Of a DNA stretch of 64,000 nt, positions 1,678 through 58,966 are shown one piece after another. Origin of the DNA: Bdellovibrio reynosensis (GTDB lineage Bacteria; Bdellovibrionota; Bdellovibrionia; Bdellovibrionales; Bdellovibrionaceae). The notes under the pieces are model-generated. The model was not told the DNA's origin, ran no database searches, and was given only the letters and a program-made list of their open reading frames with translations. The stretch is from positions 2,108,001 to 2,172,000 of the forward strand of contig NZ_CP093442.1 in the NCBI RefSeq assembly GCF_022814725.1, written 5' to 3'. Within the stretch, counting starts at the first letter, position 1. Each line of letters starts with the position of its first letter. A program made the translations under genes and the position numbers.

Positions 1678-2748
1678 ATGAAAAGTTTGATTATTGTTGG
1701 TGCACTTTTGATTTCATCACAAGCTTTTGCCTGGGGTGGCCGCGGTCATCATTCGATCTGCAGTGCTGCTAGCTTTTTGGTAAAAGAGCCAGGTTTAAAA
1801 GAATACCTTCAGCACAAACCACAGATGATGGGGCACCTTTGCAACATGCCTGATTTTTATTGGAAAAGTTTGGGTTCTGAAGCGAACAAACTTGGTAATC
1901 CTACGCACTTTGTTGATATTGAAGTGATTGGATTAAAAGTGAAAGACATTCCGACGGACTATAAAAAGATCGTTGATGAATTCACAGGCAGACCCAATAA
2001 ATTTAAAAACGATGGCTCTACTATCAAATCCATCCCCAACGAATTTGGTTCTTCTTGGTGGAGAGCCGATCAGTTCATGCGGATGATTGAAGGCCTTGCA
2101 AAAGGTTTTGCTTCGGCTGTGGCCCCAGCAAACTTTAAGGAAGAGCAGAACAATGAACTTCCTTACAACAAACTTTCATATGACATGATTGTGGCGATGG
2201 GATTGATGGGTCACTTTGTTGGTGATAACGCTCAACCCTTTCACACTTCCGCAGACTATGATGGATATGCTGTGGGTCACGGTGGCATCCATGCTTACTT
2301 TGAAGATGCCGTTGTTGGTCAGTTCGATGGCGATCTTGAAGCATTGATTTTAAAAGAAGCGCGGGGGATGAAAAATCCTAGCTTCCTAAAACCTGCGACT
2401 GCAGTTGAAAAAATGAAAGCTCTAAGCCAAATTTCTTTTGAAGAGATCCCAAAGATTTTGAAAATGGATCCGATCAAAAAGAAATCTACCTTGGTAAAAG
2501 AAAAAGGCATGGAGATTAAAACTGCAGCTGAACGTGAACCAGCCCAAGTGGCATTTAAAAAGATGAAACCACTTATTGTCACTGAAATGGCGCGCGCTTC
2601 TGTGTTGTTAGCAAATCTTTGGGATGAAGCTTATGTAAAAGCAGGTCGTCCTAAGATCGGAGCTTACAAATCCTACAAATATCCGTTCACGGTGGATTTT
2701 GTCGCTCCAGATTACTACCCAACTGAAGTGAAAGAAGAAAAGAAGTAG
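1678..2748 (+). CDS. Secreted S1/P1-type zinc nuclease
   Basis: Exported phosphodiesterase of the S1/P1 nuclease family, which cuts single-stranded nucleic acids using three zinc ions. The signal peptide ends AFA, and predicted cleavage leaves Trp19 as the mature N-terminus. That is diagnostic, because family members use the N-terminal Trp as a zinc ligand. WGGRGHH at 19-25 and HFVGDNAQPFH in the middle (HxxxD...H) match further zinc-ligand motifs. At 356 residues it is somewhat longer than typical, with a Lys-rich C-terminal tail. It starts 12 bases after the nucleoside permease, preceded by AGAGG. Inference: digestion of prey nucleic acids in the periplasm or bdelloplast feeds the transporter. 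A related zinc phospholipase C fold is the main alternative. Confidence 0.85.
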   Translation: MKSLIIVGALLISSQAFAWGGRGHHSICSAASFLVKEPGLKEYLQHKPQMMGHLCNMPDFYWKSLGSEANKLGNPTHFVDIEVIGLKVKDIPTDYKKIVDEFTGRPNKFKNDGSTIKSIPNEFGSSWWRADQFMRMIEGLAKGFASAVAPANFKEEQNNELPYNKLSYDMIVAMGLMGHFVGDNAQPFHTSADYDGYAVGHGGIHAYFEDAVVGQFDGDLEALILKEARGMKNPSFLKPATAVEKMKALSQISFEEIPKILKMDPIKKKSTLVKEKGMEIKTAAEREPAQVAFKKMKPLIVTEMARASVLLANLWDEAYVKAGRPKIGAYKSYKYPFTVDFVAPDYYPTEVKEEKK

Positions 2749-2774
2749 AGTTCATTTTTCGAGTGAAAACTCTG

Positions 2775-2861
2775 TGATAATTTTTCTTTACAGTGTTTTG
2801 TTTCCTTGTCAGTTAAGAGGCTTCCCATATACTGGGGCGGATTAATTAAAGGAAACAAAAC
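2775..2861 (+). promoter_or_regulatory. Promoter and SD-sequestering leader hairpin A
   Basis: A -10-like TGATAAT sits at 2775-2781. Fourteen bases on, the arm GTTTTGTTTCCTT (2795-2807) is perfectly complementary over 13 bp to AAGGAAACAAAAC (2849-2861), which holds the Shine-Dalgarno AAGGA and ends next to the ATG at 2863. The loop is 41 nt and contains a smaller possible hairpin. The downstream paralogue at 3307 has the same arrangement with compensatory base changes, which argues for a functional RNA structure. An effect on translation is inferred. Confidence 0.6.
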
Positions 2862-2862
2862 C

Positions 2863-3138
2863 ATGCTACGTTTTGCATTTGCTGTTTTAGCTACAACTCT
2901 TGTACTTTTCTCGATGGCAGACGGTAAACCCATTCGCCCTTACTATAATCCTTTAGGACAACATGCGCTTCACAAACACAAAGGTGATGTTGCATTGGCG
3001 GAAGCGATCAGCAAATTAAGTTCTCGGTATAACAGAAAAGCCAAATTTAAATTTAGGCCGAGACCTAAAGTCTTCGTTGCTCAAGCAGATACCGCTAAAC
3101 GAATCTTTTACTCAAATCATTTAAGAAGTCCGATTTAG
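2863..3138 (+). CDS. Small secreted protein, RPxYNP family, copy A
   Basis: Unrecognised 91-residue exported protein. I chose the ATG at 2863, preceded by AAAGGA, over an upstream in-frame start at 2806 that would put the leader hairpin inside the gene. The N-terminus is a typical signal peptide (LATTLVLFSMADG). The mature protein begins KPIRPYYNPLGQHALHKHKGD and is then very basic (RYNRKAKFKFRPRPK). The N-terminal block matches the next gene (YPSRPGYNPFEKAATHEYDD), sharing RPxYNP, a later A and H, and D; the C-terminal halves have diverged. No cysteines and no catalytic motif are visible. Probably periplasmic or secreted; function unknown. Confidence 0.7.
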   Translation: MLRFAFAVLATTLVLFSMADGKPIRPYYNPLGQHALHKHKGDVALAEAISKLSSRYNRKAKFKFRPRPKVFVAQADTAKRIFYSNHLRSPI

Positions 3139-3219
3139 CGTCTGCGGCACTCCCTAATATTACGTCACTGAAATGAATTAAGAAAAGATTTGGCGGTTAC
3201 ATTACGAATGAAGCTTCGC

Positions 3220-3306
3220 TGTTAATTTTTCTTCACAAGATTTTGTTTTCTTGTTAGTTAGGCCGTCCCTTAAACGGTACGTTCGCTGATACAAGGAAAC
3301 AAAATC
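3220..3306 (+). promoter_or_regulatory. Promoter and SD-sequestering leader hairpin B
   Basis: Duplicate of the leader at 2775-2861. A -10-like TGTTAAT (3220-3226) is followed after 12 bases by GATTTTGTTTTCTTG (3239-3253), which pairs with CAAGGAAACAAAATC (3292-3306) over 15 bp with one G-U pair. The 3' arm includes the AAGGA ribosome-binding site and abuts the ATG. Relative to copy A, one G-C pair is A-T, one C-G pair is U-G and an A/G mismatch is C-G, so pairing is kept while sequence changes. Confidence 0.62.
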
Positions 3307-3651
3307 ATGCATCTCTTTTTTCTATTTACACTTAGCTGCGCAATTTTACCTGCAGCCCATGCTTATCCCTCGCGACCTGGATACAATCCTTTTGAAAAAG
3401 CCGCAACTCACGAATATGACGACACTTTGATGATGACTGCGCAGATCAGCGACTTTGTCGACGAAGTGAAAAAAATCAAAATCAAACCGGGCCATCAAAA
3501 AAACCTAAAGCACTATTTAAGTCATGCGACTGTGTTGTTAGTTCAGGCGCAAAATGCAAAAACTCCAGAACAAGTCACAAACTCCTGGTTAACTGCGATT
3601 TCCTTAAGACAAGAATTTCGTAAGTATGTAAGAAACTACGCACTTCTTTAA
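3307..3651 (+). CDS. Small secreted protein, RPxYNP family, copy B
   Basis: Unrecognised 114-residue exported protein, paralogue of the 2863 gene. The signal peptide is FTLSCAILPAAHA, then the mature protein begins YPSRPGYNP. The rest is mostly helical-looking and charged (KKIKIKPGHQKNLKHYLSH). A lone Cys lies in the signal region, and it is not a clear lipobox. Promoter, leader hairpin and N-terminal coding part resemble copy A, so the pair arose by tandem duplication followed by divergence of the C-terminal part. A weak GC hairpin at 3665-3679 (GGCCCT/AGGGCC) lies behind the stop but lacks a good T-run. Role unknown. Confidence 0.72.
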   Translation: MHLFFLFTLSCAILPAAHAYPSRPGYNPFEKAATHEYDDTLMMTAQISDFVDEVKKIKIKPGHQKNLKHYLSHATVLLVQAQNAKTPEQVTNSWLTAISLRQEFRKYVRNYALL

Positions 3652-3781
3652 TTCGTGAGTCTTGGGCCCTTGTAGGGCCGCTGTCATTTTCTTAGACACT
3701 ACCTTCCGGGTTATATTGCAGCCCGCCCGGGCATAAATCTCGCATTTCAAGTCTTCGGATTAAAACCATAGAGGAGAGACT

Positions 3782-4162
3782 ATGAAAAAGAAATTTATGC
3801 TAGCAATGGCAATCGTGATGCTTTTGGGTTCCGTTAAAGCGATGGCTGAAGAGATGGATGAATTCGATCATGCTCATCAATTAGCAATCATAAACACCGT
3901 TCAGCTTAATAAAATCGAAGATAATATTAAACTGATGGAAGGCCTTAAAGACCTAGCTGATCTTCAATACCAAGAGGGCGAAACTTCTACAGTTGGACAA
4001 ATCACCAAGCTTACGGAAGAAGCTACTATCTTAGCTAAAGACCTTAATGCAGATTCAGATGGTTTAAAAGTCGATGAGACTTTAGAGCAAGTAAAAATTT
4101 TAGCAAGAACTGCATGCTCAATTGCTAAAGTAGATCAGCAAGACTGCAAAATTCAGGAATAA
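3782..4162 (+). CDS. Unknown exported helical protein
   Basis: 126 residues, with a signal peptide ending VKAMA before EEMDEFDHAHQ. The mature part is acidic and predicted helical, with a heptad-like run of Leu and Ile (IEDNIKLMEGLKDLADLQ), and carries two Cys near the C-terminus (ARTACSIAKVDQQDC) that could form a disulfide. A strong ribosome-binding site GAGGAG precedes the ATG. Three bases after the stop the next gene, a lipoprotein, begins, so the two are probably co-transcribed and may act together in the envelope. No family recognised. Confidence 0.72.
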   Translation: MKKKFMLAMAIVMLLGSVKAMAEEMDEFDHAHQLAIINTVQLNKIEDNIKLMEGLKDLADLQYQEGETSTVGQITKLTEEATILAKDLNADSDGLKVDETLEQVKILARTACSIAKVDQQDCKIQE

Positions 4163-5808: not shown

Positions 5809-6648
5809 CTAACTATGACTTAAAGAAGTTCCTGCCGAAGCTATAACAATACAAAAAATCGCAGCCCACTGTATCGGTTCTAATGTTTCCTTTAAAAAAA
5901 TAGTTCCTATTACTGTTGCGACCACTGGCTCTAGCGACATTAGAATGCCGAAGGTTTTTGCGGGGATATTTCTCATCGCCTTCATTTCTAGCGAATAGGG
6001 AATGGCGCTTGATAATAAAGCGATGGCTAAACCCATTGGCCACAGGCTTGGGTTTTTGATCCTGTCCCCTTCTAAGAAGATTCCAAAGGGTAACACTGAA
6101 AGTGCTGCGAACACCATTCCCCATGCTGATACTTGCAAACTAGAGCCGTGCTTACCTGCGGCTTTGGCAAATACGATATAAAGCGCCCAAAATAGAGCTG
6201 CACATAAGACAAAGAGGATGCCGATGGGATCTAAGCTTCCGCTATATTCTGATGTTGGAAGAATTAAATATATTCCTAGGGCTGCCAAGGCGACCCAAAG
6301 CAGGTCCACTCGCTTTTTAGAAGCTAAAACTGCTACTGATAATGGACCAATGAACTCAATCGCCACTGCAATTCCCAAAGGAATTCTTTCTAGGGCAAAA
6401 TAGAACGTCAGGTTCATCAAACCTAGGGAAAGACCATACGCGAGAAGGATAAAAAAGTTTCCCTTGGAAATATTATGTTTCCAAGCCCTGCCGACGATGA
6501 ATAACATGATGGCTGAAAATGAAACGCGTAAAGCAGTGGTTCCGGCGGCACCTGCAAGTGGGAAGAATTGCTTTGCAATCGAAGCACCATACTGAATTGA
6601 AAGCATTGCTATCAATAACAAACCCAAAGGTAAAAGATGTTGGCGCAT
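5809..6648 (-). CDS. rhtA: RhtA-type EamA/DMT exporter
   Basis: Inner-membrane drug/metabolite transporter with ten hydrophobic segments in two EamA repeats (279 residues, normal length). It closely follows E. coli RhtA, the threonine/homoserine exporter, as I remember it: IQYGASIAKQFFPLAGAAG near the N-terminus, PLGIAVAIEFIGPLSVAVL in the middle, and IPYSLEMKAMRNIPAKTFG with LMSLEPVVA near the C-terminus. Export of small amino acids is inferred from that resemblance. No ribosome-binding site is strong, and the ATG at 6648 fits the homologous N-terminus. It stands alone, convergent with the lipoprotein gene. Confidence 0.88.
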   Translation of the reverse strand: MRQHLLPLGLLLIAMLSIQYGASIAKQFFPLAGAAGTTALRVSFSAIMLFIVGRAWKHNISKGNFFILLAYGLSLGLMNLTFYFALERIPLGIAVAIEFIGPLSVAVLASKKRVDLLWVALAALGIYLILPTSEYSGSLDPIGILFVLCAALFWALYIVFAKAAGKHGSSLQVSAWGMVFAALSVLPFGIFLEGDRIKNPSLWPMGLAIALLSSAIPYSLEMKAMRNIPAKTFGILMSLEPVVATVIGTIFLKETLEPIQWAAIFCIVIASAGTSLSHS

Positions 6649-56099: not shown

Positions 56100-57092
56100 G
56101 TGAGTGATATTCTTTTAGAGGTCCAAAATCTTAAGACACGCTTTAAGACTGACGACGGTTCTTTCTATGCCGTTGACGATGTCAGCTTCAATGTTAAAAA
56201 AGGTCAAACTCTTGGAATCGTTGGTGAATCAGGTTGCGGTAAATCTGTAACTTCTCTTTCGATCATGCGCTTGATTCAAAAGCCTGGAAACATCGAAGCA
56301 GGTAAAATCCTGTTTAAAGGTAAAGACCTATTGGGCCTTTCTGACGATAAAATGCGCGACATTCGTGGTAACGAAATCGCGATGATTTTCCAAGAACCAA
56401 TGACTTCTTTGAATCCGGTTTACACAATCGGTGATCAAATCGAAGAAGCTGTTTTGCTTCACCAAAAGAATTTAACTAAAGACCAAGCTCGCGAACGCGC
56501 TATCGACATGCTTCGTATCGTGGGTATCCCAGCTCCTGAAAAACGTTTCTTTGAATATCCGCACCAACTTTCTGGCGGTATGAGACAACGTGTGATGATC
56601 GCAATGGCGATCAGCTGTAACCCAGAACTTCTTATTGCCGATGAGCCAACAACAGCTCTAGACGTTACTATCCAAGCGCAAATCTTGGATCTTATGCGCA
56701 AACTTCAAAAAGACTTCAACGCAGGTATGATTCTTATCACGCACGATTTAGGCGTGGTTGCAGAGATGTGCCAAGAAGTTGCCGTTATGTATGCGGGTCG
56801 CGTGGTTGAATACGGAACTGTAGAAGACATCTTCTATCGCCCAAAACATCACTACACCAAGGGTCTTTTAGATTCTATTCCGCACTTTGAAACAGGTCAC
56901 AGACTTGAATCACTAAGAACAATCAAAGGGATGGTACCAAGCCTTTACAATCTTCCTAAAGGCTGCCGTTTTGCTGATCGCTGTCCAGCGGCTCAAGACG
57001 ATTGCCGTGCTTCTTACCCATCGCTTGAAAATCTTCGCGGCATTCATAAAGTCGCGTGTTACCACCCATTGTCTGAAGAGGTAAAACCCTAA
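56100..57092 (+). CDS. Oligopeptide/dipeptide ABC transporter ATPase (OppD/DppD type)
   Basis: 330 residues, cytoplasmic. Walker [17 protein letters not shown]-loop [15 protein letters not shown], signature [15 protein letters not shown], Walker [15 protein letters not shown] and switch His (ITHDLGVV) are all intact. The C-terminal Cys-rich extension [14 protein letters not shown] is the oligopeptide-transporter type that can hold an iron-sulphur cluster. GTG start. One-base overlap (TAATG) with the next ATPase. No permease or binding protein in the window. Confidence 0.93.
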
Positions 57093-58060
57093 TGAGCACT
57101 CCTCTTTTGAAGGTTGAAAACCTAACAAAAAGCTTTCCTATTTACGGTGGACTTTTCAGCCGTGAAGTTGCTTCTGTAAAAGCCGTTCAAGGTATTTCTT
57201 TTGAACTTAATAAGGGTGAAACCCTAGGTCTTGTGGGTGAATCTGGTTGCGGTAAGTCAACTTTGGGTCGTTGCTTGATCCGTCTACACGACACGACTTC
57301 TGGAAAAATCAGCTACAACGGTAAAGACATCACACATATCAAGGGTGAAGAGCTTCGTGAAATGCGCAAAAAAATGCAGATCATCTTCCAAGATCCGTTT
57401 GCATCTTTAAATCCACGCATGACGATCGGTTCTATCCTTGAAGAGCCTTTGATTATCCACGACCTTTATGGTTCAGCAAAAGACCGCCAAGATCGCATCC
57501 ATGAGTTGATTGATCTGGTGGGTCTTCGTCGCGAACACTTAAACCGTTACCCGCATGAGTTTTCAGGCGGTCAACGTCAACGTGTGGGTATCGCTCGTTC
57601 TTTAGCGGTGAACCCTGAACTTATCGTGTGTGACGAGCCGGTATCTGCTCTTGACGTTTCTATCCAAGCACAAGTGATCAATCTTTTGATGGAGCTTCAA
57701 CAAAAGCTGGGCCTTACCTACATCTTCATCGCCCATGACTTGAAAGTCGTTGAACACGTTTCAACAAAAGTGGCTGTGATGTACTTGGGTAAAATCGTTG
57801 AGATGGCTGAAGCTGAAGAGCTTTACCGCAATCCTAAACATCCCTATACCAAAGCCTTGATGTCAGCGATCCCAGTTCCAGATCCTCGCCGTAAAGATGA
57901 TCGCATCATCTTAACGGGTGACGTTCCATCGCCAATCAATCCTCCGACAGGCTGTCATTTCCATCCTCGTTGCCCAATGGCTATCGAAGATTGCAAGACC
58001 ATCGTCCCGCCATTGGAAGAAAAAGTTCCGAATCATATCGCTGCCTGCATCCGAGTATAA
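57092..58060 (+). CDS. Oligopeptide/dipeptide ABC transporter ATPase (OppF/DppF type)
   Basis: 322 residues, second ATPase of the heterodimer. Walker [30 protein letters not shown], signature [14 protein letters not shown], Walker [15 protein letters not shown], and a C-terminal [12 protein letters not shown] cluster motif. Starts within the previous stop codon. The pair needs two permeases and a peptide-binding protein encoded elsewhere; import of prey peptides is a reasonable inference. Confidence 0.93.
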
Positions 58061-58083
58061 AGAAGTCTCTTTAACTCTCCGAT

Positions 58084-58143
58084 AACTCCTTAGATTGCTT
58101 GTCACGCCATAGCTTTAGCGACGGCGGAGGAATCTAAGGAGTT
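58084..58143 (+). promoter_or_regulatory. Leader hairpin hiding the ribosome-binding site
   Basis: AACTCCTTAGATT (58084-58096) and AATCTAAGGAGTT (58131-58143) form a perfect 13-bp stem; the 3' arm is the Shine-Dalgarno AAGGAG and ends two bases before the ATG at 58145. The 34-nt loop contains CGCC/GGCG, which could stack on the main stem. Confidence 0.65.
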
Positions 58144-58144
58144 T

Positions 58145-58966
58145 ATGAAAACCCAAGGTAAAGTCTGGATCATTTATGACGCTGAAACAAAGACGCAGTC
58201 TAAGCCTATGTCTGTAGTACAGGCACAGGTGGCGCTTCTTTCTTTAGCTAATAAAGATCACGGCAAGTTCTTCTTGTGGACTCCGGGTTGGGAAGAATGG
58301 GTTTGCATTCGCGAATTTCTTGAATCCGACCAAAAATATTTCGTGATCATTCAGCCACCAAAGCCAATGGATTTACCGGGTGCTGATGAAACAGTAACTG
58401 CAACTCAGAATGCTCCTGCGACATCCAATAATGACAGTAGATATACTCAAGTCGTTGTTGGCGACTTGCCAATAAAGAAAACTGAAATCGGTGGTTATCA
58501 CTCTAAAGATTTCAATGGTGATGAACTGGATTTAGCAAAAATTAAAAAGCTTAAGCCCGATGCCATGGGCAAAAAGAAAGTCGCAGAACCAGTGGCACCT
58601 GTTGAAGAAGACGGAGCTGACCGTCGCCGCGATCCTCGTCACAATTTTAAAATTGAAGTGGTACTAGTTTCCAAGATCCGTTCATTCAGAACATATTCAC
58701 GCAATATTTCTTTAAGTGGAACGATGCTTGAAGATGAAATCCCTCGCGATTTCTTAAATAAGCCTTTTGATTTAATTATCGTAAATCCATTTGAACCAGA
58801 TCCATCGAAATCAAGATTGCTCTTCCGAGCTAAGATCGTTGGAGATCTTCAAGATCCTCGCCGCTTGATGTTCGTTGAACAAGACGTTGCGATGACTTTA
58901 AGACTTGATGCTTTGTTGAAAGCTTACGTTGCTTATCAAGATCAAGTTCGCAAAGGCGCAAGTTAG
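58145..58966 (+). CDS. GYF-like plus PilZ domain protein
   Basis: 273 residues. N-terminal about 1-62 resembles the bacterial GYF_2 peptide-binding fold (VWIIYDAETKTQSKPMSVVQ with a later FLWTPGWEEWVCIREF). A low-complexity linker follows, then a PilZ domain at about 158-265 with RRDPR (RxxxR) and NISLSG (N/DxSxxG), the two c-di-GMP contacts. Cyclic di-GMP controls predation and gliding in Bdellovibrio, so this is probably one of its receptors. Its 5' leader contains a 13-bp SD-masking stem. Monocistronic. Confidence 0.85.
   Translation: MKTQGKVWIIYDAETKTQSKPMSVVQAQVALLSLANKDHGKFFLWTPGWEEWVCIREFLESDQKYFVIIQPPKPMDLPGADETVTATQNAPATSNNDSRYTQVVVGDLPIKKTEIGGYHSKDFNGDELDLAKIKKLKPDAMGKKKVAEPVAPVEEDGADRRRDPRHNFKIEVVLVSKIRSFRTYSRNISLSGTMLEDEIPRDFLNKPFDLIIVNPFEPDPSKSRLLFRAKIVGDLQDPRRLMFVEQDVAMTLRLDALLKAYVAYQDQVRKGAS

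Follow-up and report, generated by a model that had tools for sequence, protein, structure and literature searches.

Leader hairpins that pair away the ribosome-binding site in Bdellovibrio reynosensis: candidate silencers of RNA entering from upstream genes

Fold-back inhibition of transposase synthesis in IS10 and IS50 relies on an inverted repeat that buries the Shine-Dalgarno (SD) region solely in transcripts arriving from outside the element, while transcription from the element's own promoter begins within the repeat and yields an open mRNA; similar SD hairpins exist in IS elements. In phage T4, the SDs of e, soc, 49, and I-TevI are masked in early read-through transcripts, and these genes also possess internal late promoters. 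The available text of a report on type I toxin-antitoxin systems of Helicobacter pylori describes mRNAs that are translationally inert since their structure hides the SD (PMC6733600), and that of a report on Bdellovibrio bacteriovorus gives the consensus of attack-phase FliA promoters as TTAAG-N16-CCGATA (PMC3627812).

Here, we analyzed a window of 64,000 nt of the B. reynosensis chromosome (i.e., the whole stretch of DNA under study, in whose numbering coordinates are given unless another locus is named), in which two neighboring genes and, elsewhere, a pilZ gene are each preceded by a long hairpin covering the SD. Each of these hairpins may act in cis to silence the translation of RNA arriving from upstream, a reading to which we give slightly less than an even chance. 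For hairpins 1 and 2, the analysis suggests this as the most likely role, with support coming from pilZ and not directly from the duplicated pair. The features of that pair are as follows.

1678 to 2748, (+) strand: gene for an S1/P1-nuclease-like secreted protein (Pfam PF02265), presumed source of read-through
2667 to 2788, (+) strand: source segment of the duplication (nuclease 3′ end and start of leader 1), aligning to 3113 to 3234
2773 to 2781, (+) strand: extended −10-like box TGTGATAAT, 7/8 matches, predicted transcription start site (TSS) ~2788
2795 to 2807, (+) strand: 5′ arm of hairpin 1, 13 Watson-Crick pairs with 2849 to 2861, loop of 41 nt
2806 to 2833, (+) strand: sigma70-like promoter TTGTCA-N16-TATACT (10/12) in the 5′ arm end and loop of copy 1
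2849 to 2861, (+) strand: 3′ arm of hairpin 1, i.e., the SD, containing AAGGAAAC and ending 1 nt before the ATG
2863 to 3138, (+) strand: gene 1, a 91-aa orphan protein with a signal-peptide-like N-terminus
3113 to 3234, (+) strand: duplicate of the 2667 to 2788 segment, with the vestigial 3′ end of the nuclease gene and the start of leader 2
3239 to 3254, (+) strand: 5′ arm of hairpin 2, 16 pairs including one G-U, loop of 36 nt
3291 to 3306, (+) strand: 3′ arm of hairpin 2, i.e., the SD, containing AAGGAAAC and directly abutting the ATG
3307 to 3651, (+) strand: gene 2, a paralogue of gene 1 for a 114-aa orphan protein, also with a signal-peptide-like N-terminus

The local alignment between 2667–2788 and 3113–3234 has a score that 0 to 1 of 1,000 tail-only shuffles reached. 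Judging from the sequence, copies 1 and 2 arose by one tandem duplication, which also took the 3′ end of the nuclease gene; the latter matches PF02265 with an E-value of 4e-5 and 24 bits, below the 29.5-bit cutoff. The last codons and the stop of gene 1 (3113–3138) fall within the vestigial nuclease tail; this would account for gene 1 being shorter than gene 2.

The inverted repeats that a preliminary description had placed at 2795–2861 and 3239–3306 proved correct in both coordinates and pairing; hairpin 2 counts 15 pairs (3239–3253/3292–3306), or 16 once the next inner pair is added. Folding energies of −24.3 and −24.9 kcal/mol for hairpins 1 and 2 lie well below those of shuffles (z = −4.3 and −5.6, respectively, for the bare hairpins). 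The 3′ arm is, as had been described, the SD region in both copies, its sequence AAGGAAACAAAA(C/T) running up to the ATG with a gap of 0 to 1 nt. With the 5′ arm present, opening the SD at 30°C is predicted to cost 14.2 (copy 1) and 13.0 (copy 2) kcal/mol, compared with a predicted 0.3 and 0.7 kcal/mol, respectively, once the 5′ arm is removed. The proposed cis-acting structure masking the SD likewise holds up, being kept in both copies although the two proteins, with an RPxYNP motif common to both, are down to 27% identity.

As a rough neutral yardstick for divergence between the copies, we used the vestigial nuclease tail, which is now non-coding. The arms are identical at 25/30 positions (83%), compared with 47/73 (64%) in the duplicated non-coding flank (P = 0.04) and 16/36 (44%) in the loop (P = 0.001), whose middle is the least conserved part of the leader (7/22 identical, 32%); the best-kept parts are the block TAATTTTTCTTYACA and the arms. 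Neutral simulation retained at least 13 of the 16 pairs in 3 to 6% of runs (P = 0.03 to 0.06). Taken together, the better preservation of the arms than of flank or loop and the low rate of neutral retention make selection on the arms of hairpins 1 and 2 likely, though short of proven. The differences between the copies had also been described as covariation. The changes themselves exist (G-C to A-U, C-G to U-G, and a G-A mismatch to G-C), but just one pair change is two-sided, a number equalled by 233 of 500 shuffles, and with two sequences only, the covariation between copies 1 and 2 appears to carry little weight.

Within its own genome, the leader was found in these two copies alone, and a covariance model built on both leaders hit only two places across 66 genomes of the family, again copies 1 and 2. 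Short blast matches at 2.92 Mb were judged to be chance, as was a covariance-model match in one genome (G048) with an E-value of 0.48. Protein homologues of genes 1 and 2 (E ≤ 0.001) were found in neither the genus, the family, nor the order (141 genomes of the order), and phage records and viral contigs held no relatives of either protein. In the two closest Bdellovibrio relatives of the nuclease locus (81% and 78% identity), other genes occupy the corresponding place. The preliminary description would have taken loss of pairing in orthologous leaders as evidence against the hairpins; with orthologues of leaders 1 and 2 absent from the 66 family genomes searched, that criterion does not apply to them.

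The stop codon of the nuclease gene lies 46 nt ahead of the hairpin 1 arm on the same strand, and the nuclease gene and genes 1 and 2 are not separated by any terminator-like site (none before 3665), so RNA from upstream may enter both leaders. Minus-strand sigma70-like sites were not listed in 2600–4000. According to the silencer model, RNA begun before the 5′ arm, whether it continues past the nuclease gene into gene 1 and then gene 2 or comes from a weak upstream −10, would fold immediately, the 5′ arm being synthesized ahead of the SD, and would bury the SD in full as far as the AUG. In an mRNA begun past the 5′ arm, the SD would instead be open. In copy 1, such an mRNA might come from the predicted sigma70-like promoter TTGTCA-N16-TATACT, whose 10/12 score was reached by 9 of 4,000 random 61-nt windows and whose predicted start at ~2840 leaves out the 5′ arm. 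With full-length RNA closed and internally started RNA open, translation would depend on the promoter used; we infer both this promoter use and the silencing in the cell. Copy 2, in which the internal promoter position scores just 6/12 and is not recognizable as a promoter, would be silent or opened by another factor.

Transcription start mapping that left the 5′ arm out of the RNA had been named as a finding that would speak against the hairpins. Copy 1's own mRNA may start in that way, provided that its sigma70-like promoter in the loop is active; since absence of the 5′ arm from that mRNA is what the read-through model expects, it would not amount to a refutation. The −10-like box that had been reported upstream of both copies is found as GATAAT in copy 1, but copy 2 has merely the poor GTTAAT. 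The extended box TGTGATAAT of copy 1 (score equalled or beaten in 56 of 4,000 random 61-nt windows) stands 13 nt ahead of the 5′ arm, which would then be transcribed; by placing the 5′ arm in the main mRNA, this box would count against the model, as would the apparent lack of an internal promoter in copy 2, the lack of orthologues for leaders 1 and 2, and a pair retention that is only marginally better than neutral. No FliA promoter was seen before either leader, and the attack/growth-phase control earlier suggested for genes 1 and 2 is accordingly not supported. An attack-phase link does emerge for the third of the window's hairpins, that of pilZ, whose 5′ arm is overlapped by a FliA promoter. 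The features of this locus are as follows.

57092 to 58060, (+) strand: dppF-like ABC transporter ATPase (ABC_tran and oligo_HPY), upstream neighbor of pilZ
58058 to 58084, (+) strand: FliA (sigma28) promoter TAAAG-N16-CCGATA of pilZ, overlapping the dppF stop codon
58084 to 58096, (+) strand: 5′ arm of the pilZ hairpin, AACTCCTTAGATT, mostly upstream of the expected TSS ~58092
58131 to 58143, (+) strand: 3′ arm of the pilZ hairpin, AATCTAAGGAGTT, with the SD AAGGAG, 1 nt before the ATG
58145 to 58966, (+) strand: gene for a PilZ-domain protein (PF07238, 25.5 bits; cutoff, 22.5)

In a scan of the window for perfect inverted repeats, the pilZ leader displayed the layout AACTCCTTAGATT, a loop of 34 nt, AATCTAAGGAGTT, and then TATG. 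The gene starts 84 nt after the dppF-like gene, and the FliA −10 abuts the 5′ arm of the hairpin, as it also does in the related genomes that have this hairpin. The expected TSS at ~58092 is based on the FliA spacing from −10 to start in the E. coli layout. An RNA that starts within the 5′ arm, as this usual spacing implies, leaves the pilZ SD free: predicted opening costs are 13.7 kcal/mol in read-through RNA versus 1.8 kcal/mol in the expected own transcript. On this modelling, the pilZ hairpin should be complete in read-through RNA alone.

Orthologues of pilZ were present in 24/24 genomes of the genus set. Across 17 distinct leaders, the two halves formed stronger duplexes within species than between species (means of −14.7 and −10.1 kcal/mol, respectively), a difference reached in 0 of 5,000 permutations, with variable loops and changed arms; by this comparison of sequences, the pilZ leader has compensatory changes above chance. 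A strong hairpin was found in all 16 genomes that have the dppF-like gene upstream of pilZ, and a weak hairpin or none in all 8 genomes with another upstream neighbor. Mapped on an FlhG protein tree, the gene arrangement shows three changes, each accompanied by a change in the hairpin, although a sign test on three independent changes (P = 0.25) is unable to reach significance at n = 3. This shared architecture, with a hairpin that tracks the dppF neighbor, supports the silencer model. The neighbor in genomes without dppF upstream is HAD-phosphatase-like and also looks co-directional, so read-through is possible there as well. Among individual genomes, G001, G004, and G007 retain an intact FliA promoter with arms that pair weakly (−3 to −4 kcal/mol), and in G010, G013, G015, and G020 (loci L078 to L081), the FliA −10 box stands 7 to 8 nt before the pilZ ATG, which leaves no leader for a hairpin. 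The pilZ mRNA of these four genomes is predicted to be leaderless or nearly so.

Hairpins of this size are rare. The 64 kb contain five Watson-Crick inverted repeats with 13 bp or more and a loop no longer than 80 nt, compared with 0 to 1 in Markov shuffles; two of the five, copy 1 and pilZ, have loops of 20 to 80 nt, and each ends at a start codon. In 464 kb of the genome with 582 putative SD-plus-start sites, SD-burying stems of at least 12 pairs were confined to hairpins 1, 2, and pilZ, and stems below 10 pairs were hardly in excess. We found that long SD-burying stems do not form a broad class, and this candidate was set aside, with no stem of at least 12 pairs seen in the 400 kb sampled outside the window. 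An 11-pair SD-burying stem, TTTTACCTCTA/TAGAGGTGAAA with a loop of 59, precedes a 220-aa gene elsewhere in the same genome (L084:16843–16953).

A strong SD hairpin was not found at other FliA promoters of the genome with a nearby start codon. ACTCC after CCGATA combined with a GGAGT SD directly before the start was seen at pilZ only among the 30 loci inspected, L213 being a looser case. At L213 (G016:C452, around 6084–6120), an SD-like hairpin, CCGATAGGACTCCTG...CAGGAGTCTCGTCATATG, stands right after a FliA-like −10 box. A related layout occurs at an flhG-like gene (L096:3310–3405; own genome, ~2433310–2433405), where the FliA promoter TAAAC-N16-CCGATA lies inside an SD-burying hairpin formed by CGGACCTCC/GGAGGTCCG. 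In one half of the genus, most genomes have this layout with the arms GGACCTCC/GGAGGTC and keep the ACCTCC in the promoter spacer; because the flhG arms vary little, they are weaker evidence than pilZ. Where testable, the promoter-overlapping SD hairpin accompanies a close upstream gene.

Other explanations for hairpins 1 and 2 would read the same structures differently. If the main transcript began at the upstream −10 (~2788/3232), it would carry the full hairpin and could form a regulated switch, opened by a trans factor (a small RNA, helicase, protein, or nuclease cleavage) for conditional secretion. The extended −10 TGTGATAAT at 13 nt before the copy 1 arm, the wholly buried SD, and the preservation of TAATTTTTCTTYACA and the arms fit this idea, yet the −10 of copy 2 is poor, the loop, i.e., the expected sensor site, is the part that diverged most (mid-loop, 7/22), and no orthologues with a conserved sensor occur in the 66 family genomes. 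In addition, leaders 1 and 2 matched no described thermometer or riboswitch family in Rfam at the gathering score, which gives no support to a known riboswitch and leaves a regulated switch unlikely overall. The thermosensor, also part of the preliminary description, was rejected: an SD paired within an A/U-rich stem suits an RNA thermometer, but its predicted opening cost falls only to 12.1/11.2 kcal/mol (copies 1/2) at 42°C, i.e., it still amounts to 11 to 14 kcal/mol across 30–42°C. Predicted open fractions are ~1e-10 at 30°C and <2e-8 at 42°C, and still <1% at 75°C. Moreover, the stems are near-perfect and lack the internal mismatches usually seen in thermometers, so that this explanation is hardly credible.

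A stem-loop close to the 5′ end could also stabilize the mRNA against decay, with SD burial as a side effect, and an inferred TSS at ~2788/3232 would put the hairpin 7 nt from that end; however, a stabilizing element has no need to take in the SD all the way to the ATG, and its predicted translation cost would be very large, which makes this role quite improbable. Rather unlikely, in our judgment, is a chance inverted repeat, or a protein site at the DNA level, that arose in the ancestor and has survived in both copies, the duplication being of no great age. This would accommodate the neutral retention of at least 13/16 pairs in a few percent of runs, conserved flanks that reflect sequence as much as structure, the lack of orthologues in the family genomes, and the near-absence of an excess of shorter SD-burying stems (<10 pairs) in the 464-kb sample. 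Chance would not readily place two such inverted repeats exactly at start codons within the 64-kb window, nor would it be expected to keep the pilZ hairpin together with its pairing or to leave the arms far less diverged than the loop and coding parts.

Returning to the silencer model, we tentatively extend it, with somewhat more doubt than belief, to promoter-embedded SD hairpins as promoter-choice gates, in which RNA from a gene's own promoter would be translated, RNA from its neighbor would stay silent, and the gate would be lost when the neighbor changes. Such a gate would have its 5′ arm within the promoter or immediately before it (discriminator, spacer, or −35 end); attack-phase FliA would open pilZ and flhG, and a sigma70-like promoter would open gene 1. 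If true, the arm by which a gene is kept silent in foreign transcripts can reside in the DNA of its own promoter, tight stage-specific protein output could be obtained without terminators, and translation of a PilZ (c-di-GMP type) protein would be tied to the attack-phase sigma factor in Bdellovibrio. The neighbor-dependent gain and loss of the hairpin is traceable across genomes.

Among described systems, the SD-sequestering thermometers (ROSE and fourU) are similar in that the SD is paired in a leader hairpin, but hairpins 1 and 2 are predicted to be closed at 10–60°C and are not members of these families. Unlike the short hydrophobic type I toxins of H. pylori, genes 1 and 2 encode secreted-type proteins of 91 to 114 aa. 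The pilZ promoter TAAAG-N16-CCGATA fits the FliA attack-phase consensus of B. bacteriovorus as given in the available text of PMC3627812, where promoter-overlapping SD-masking hairpins are unmentioned, and genes 1 and 2 differ from these promoters in having no FliA site. As in IS10 and IS50, hairpins 1 and 2 pair the SD and start region with an upstream arm; unlike there, no mobile element was seen, the genome holds two leader copies from one tandem duplication, the genes encode small secreted-type orphan proteins, and promoter use is predicted. The genes considered here, unlike those of T4, are chromosomal genes of a predatory bacterium, and the candidate promoter at the duplicated pair is sigma70-like, not stage-specific. 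As in T4, promoter choice would decide whether the SD is masked, and a stage-specific sigma factor, FliA, would drive the open pilZ transcript.
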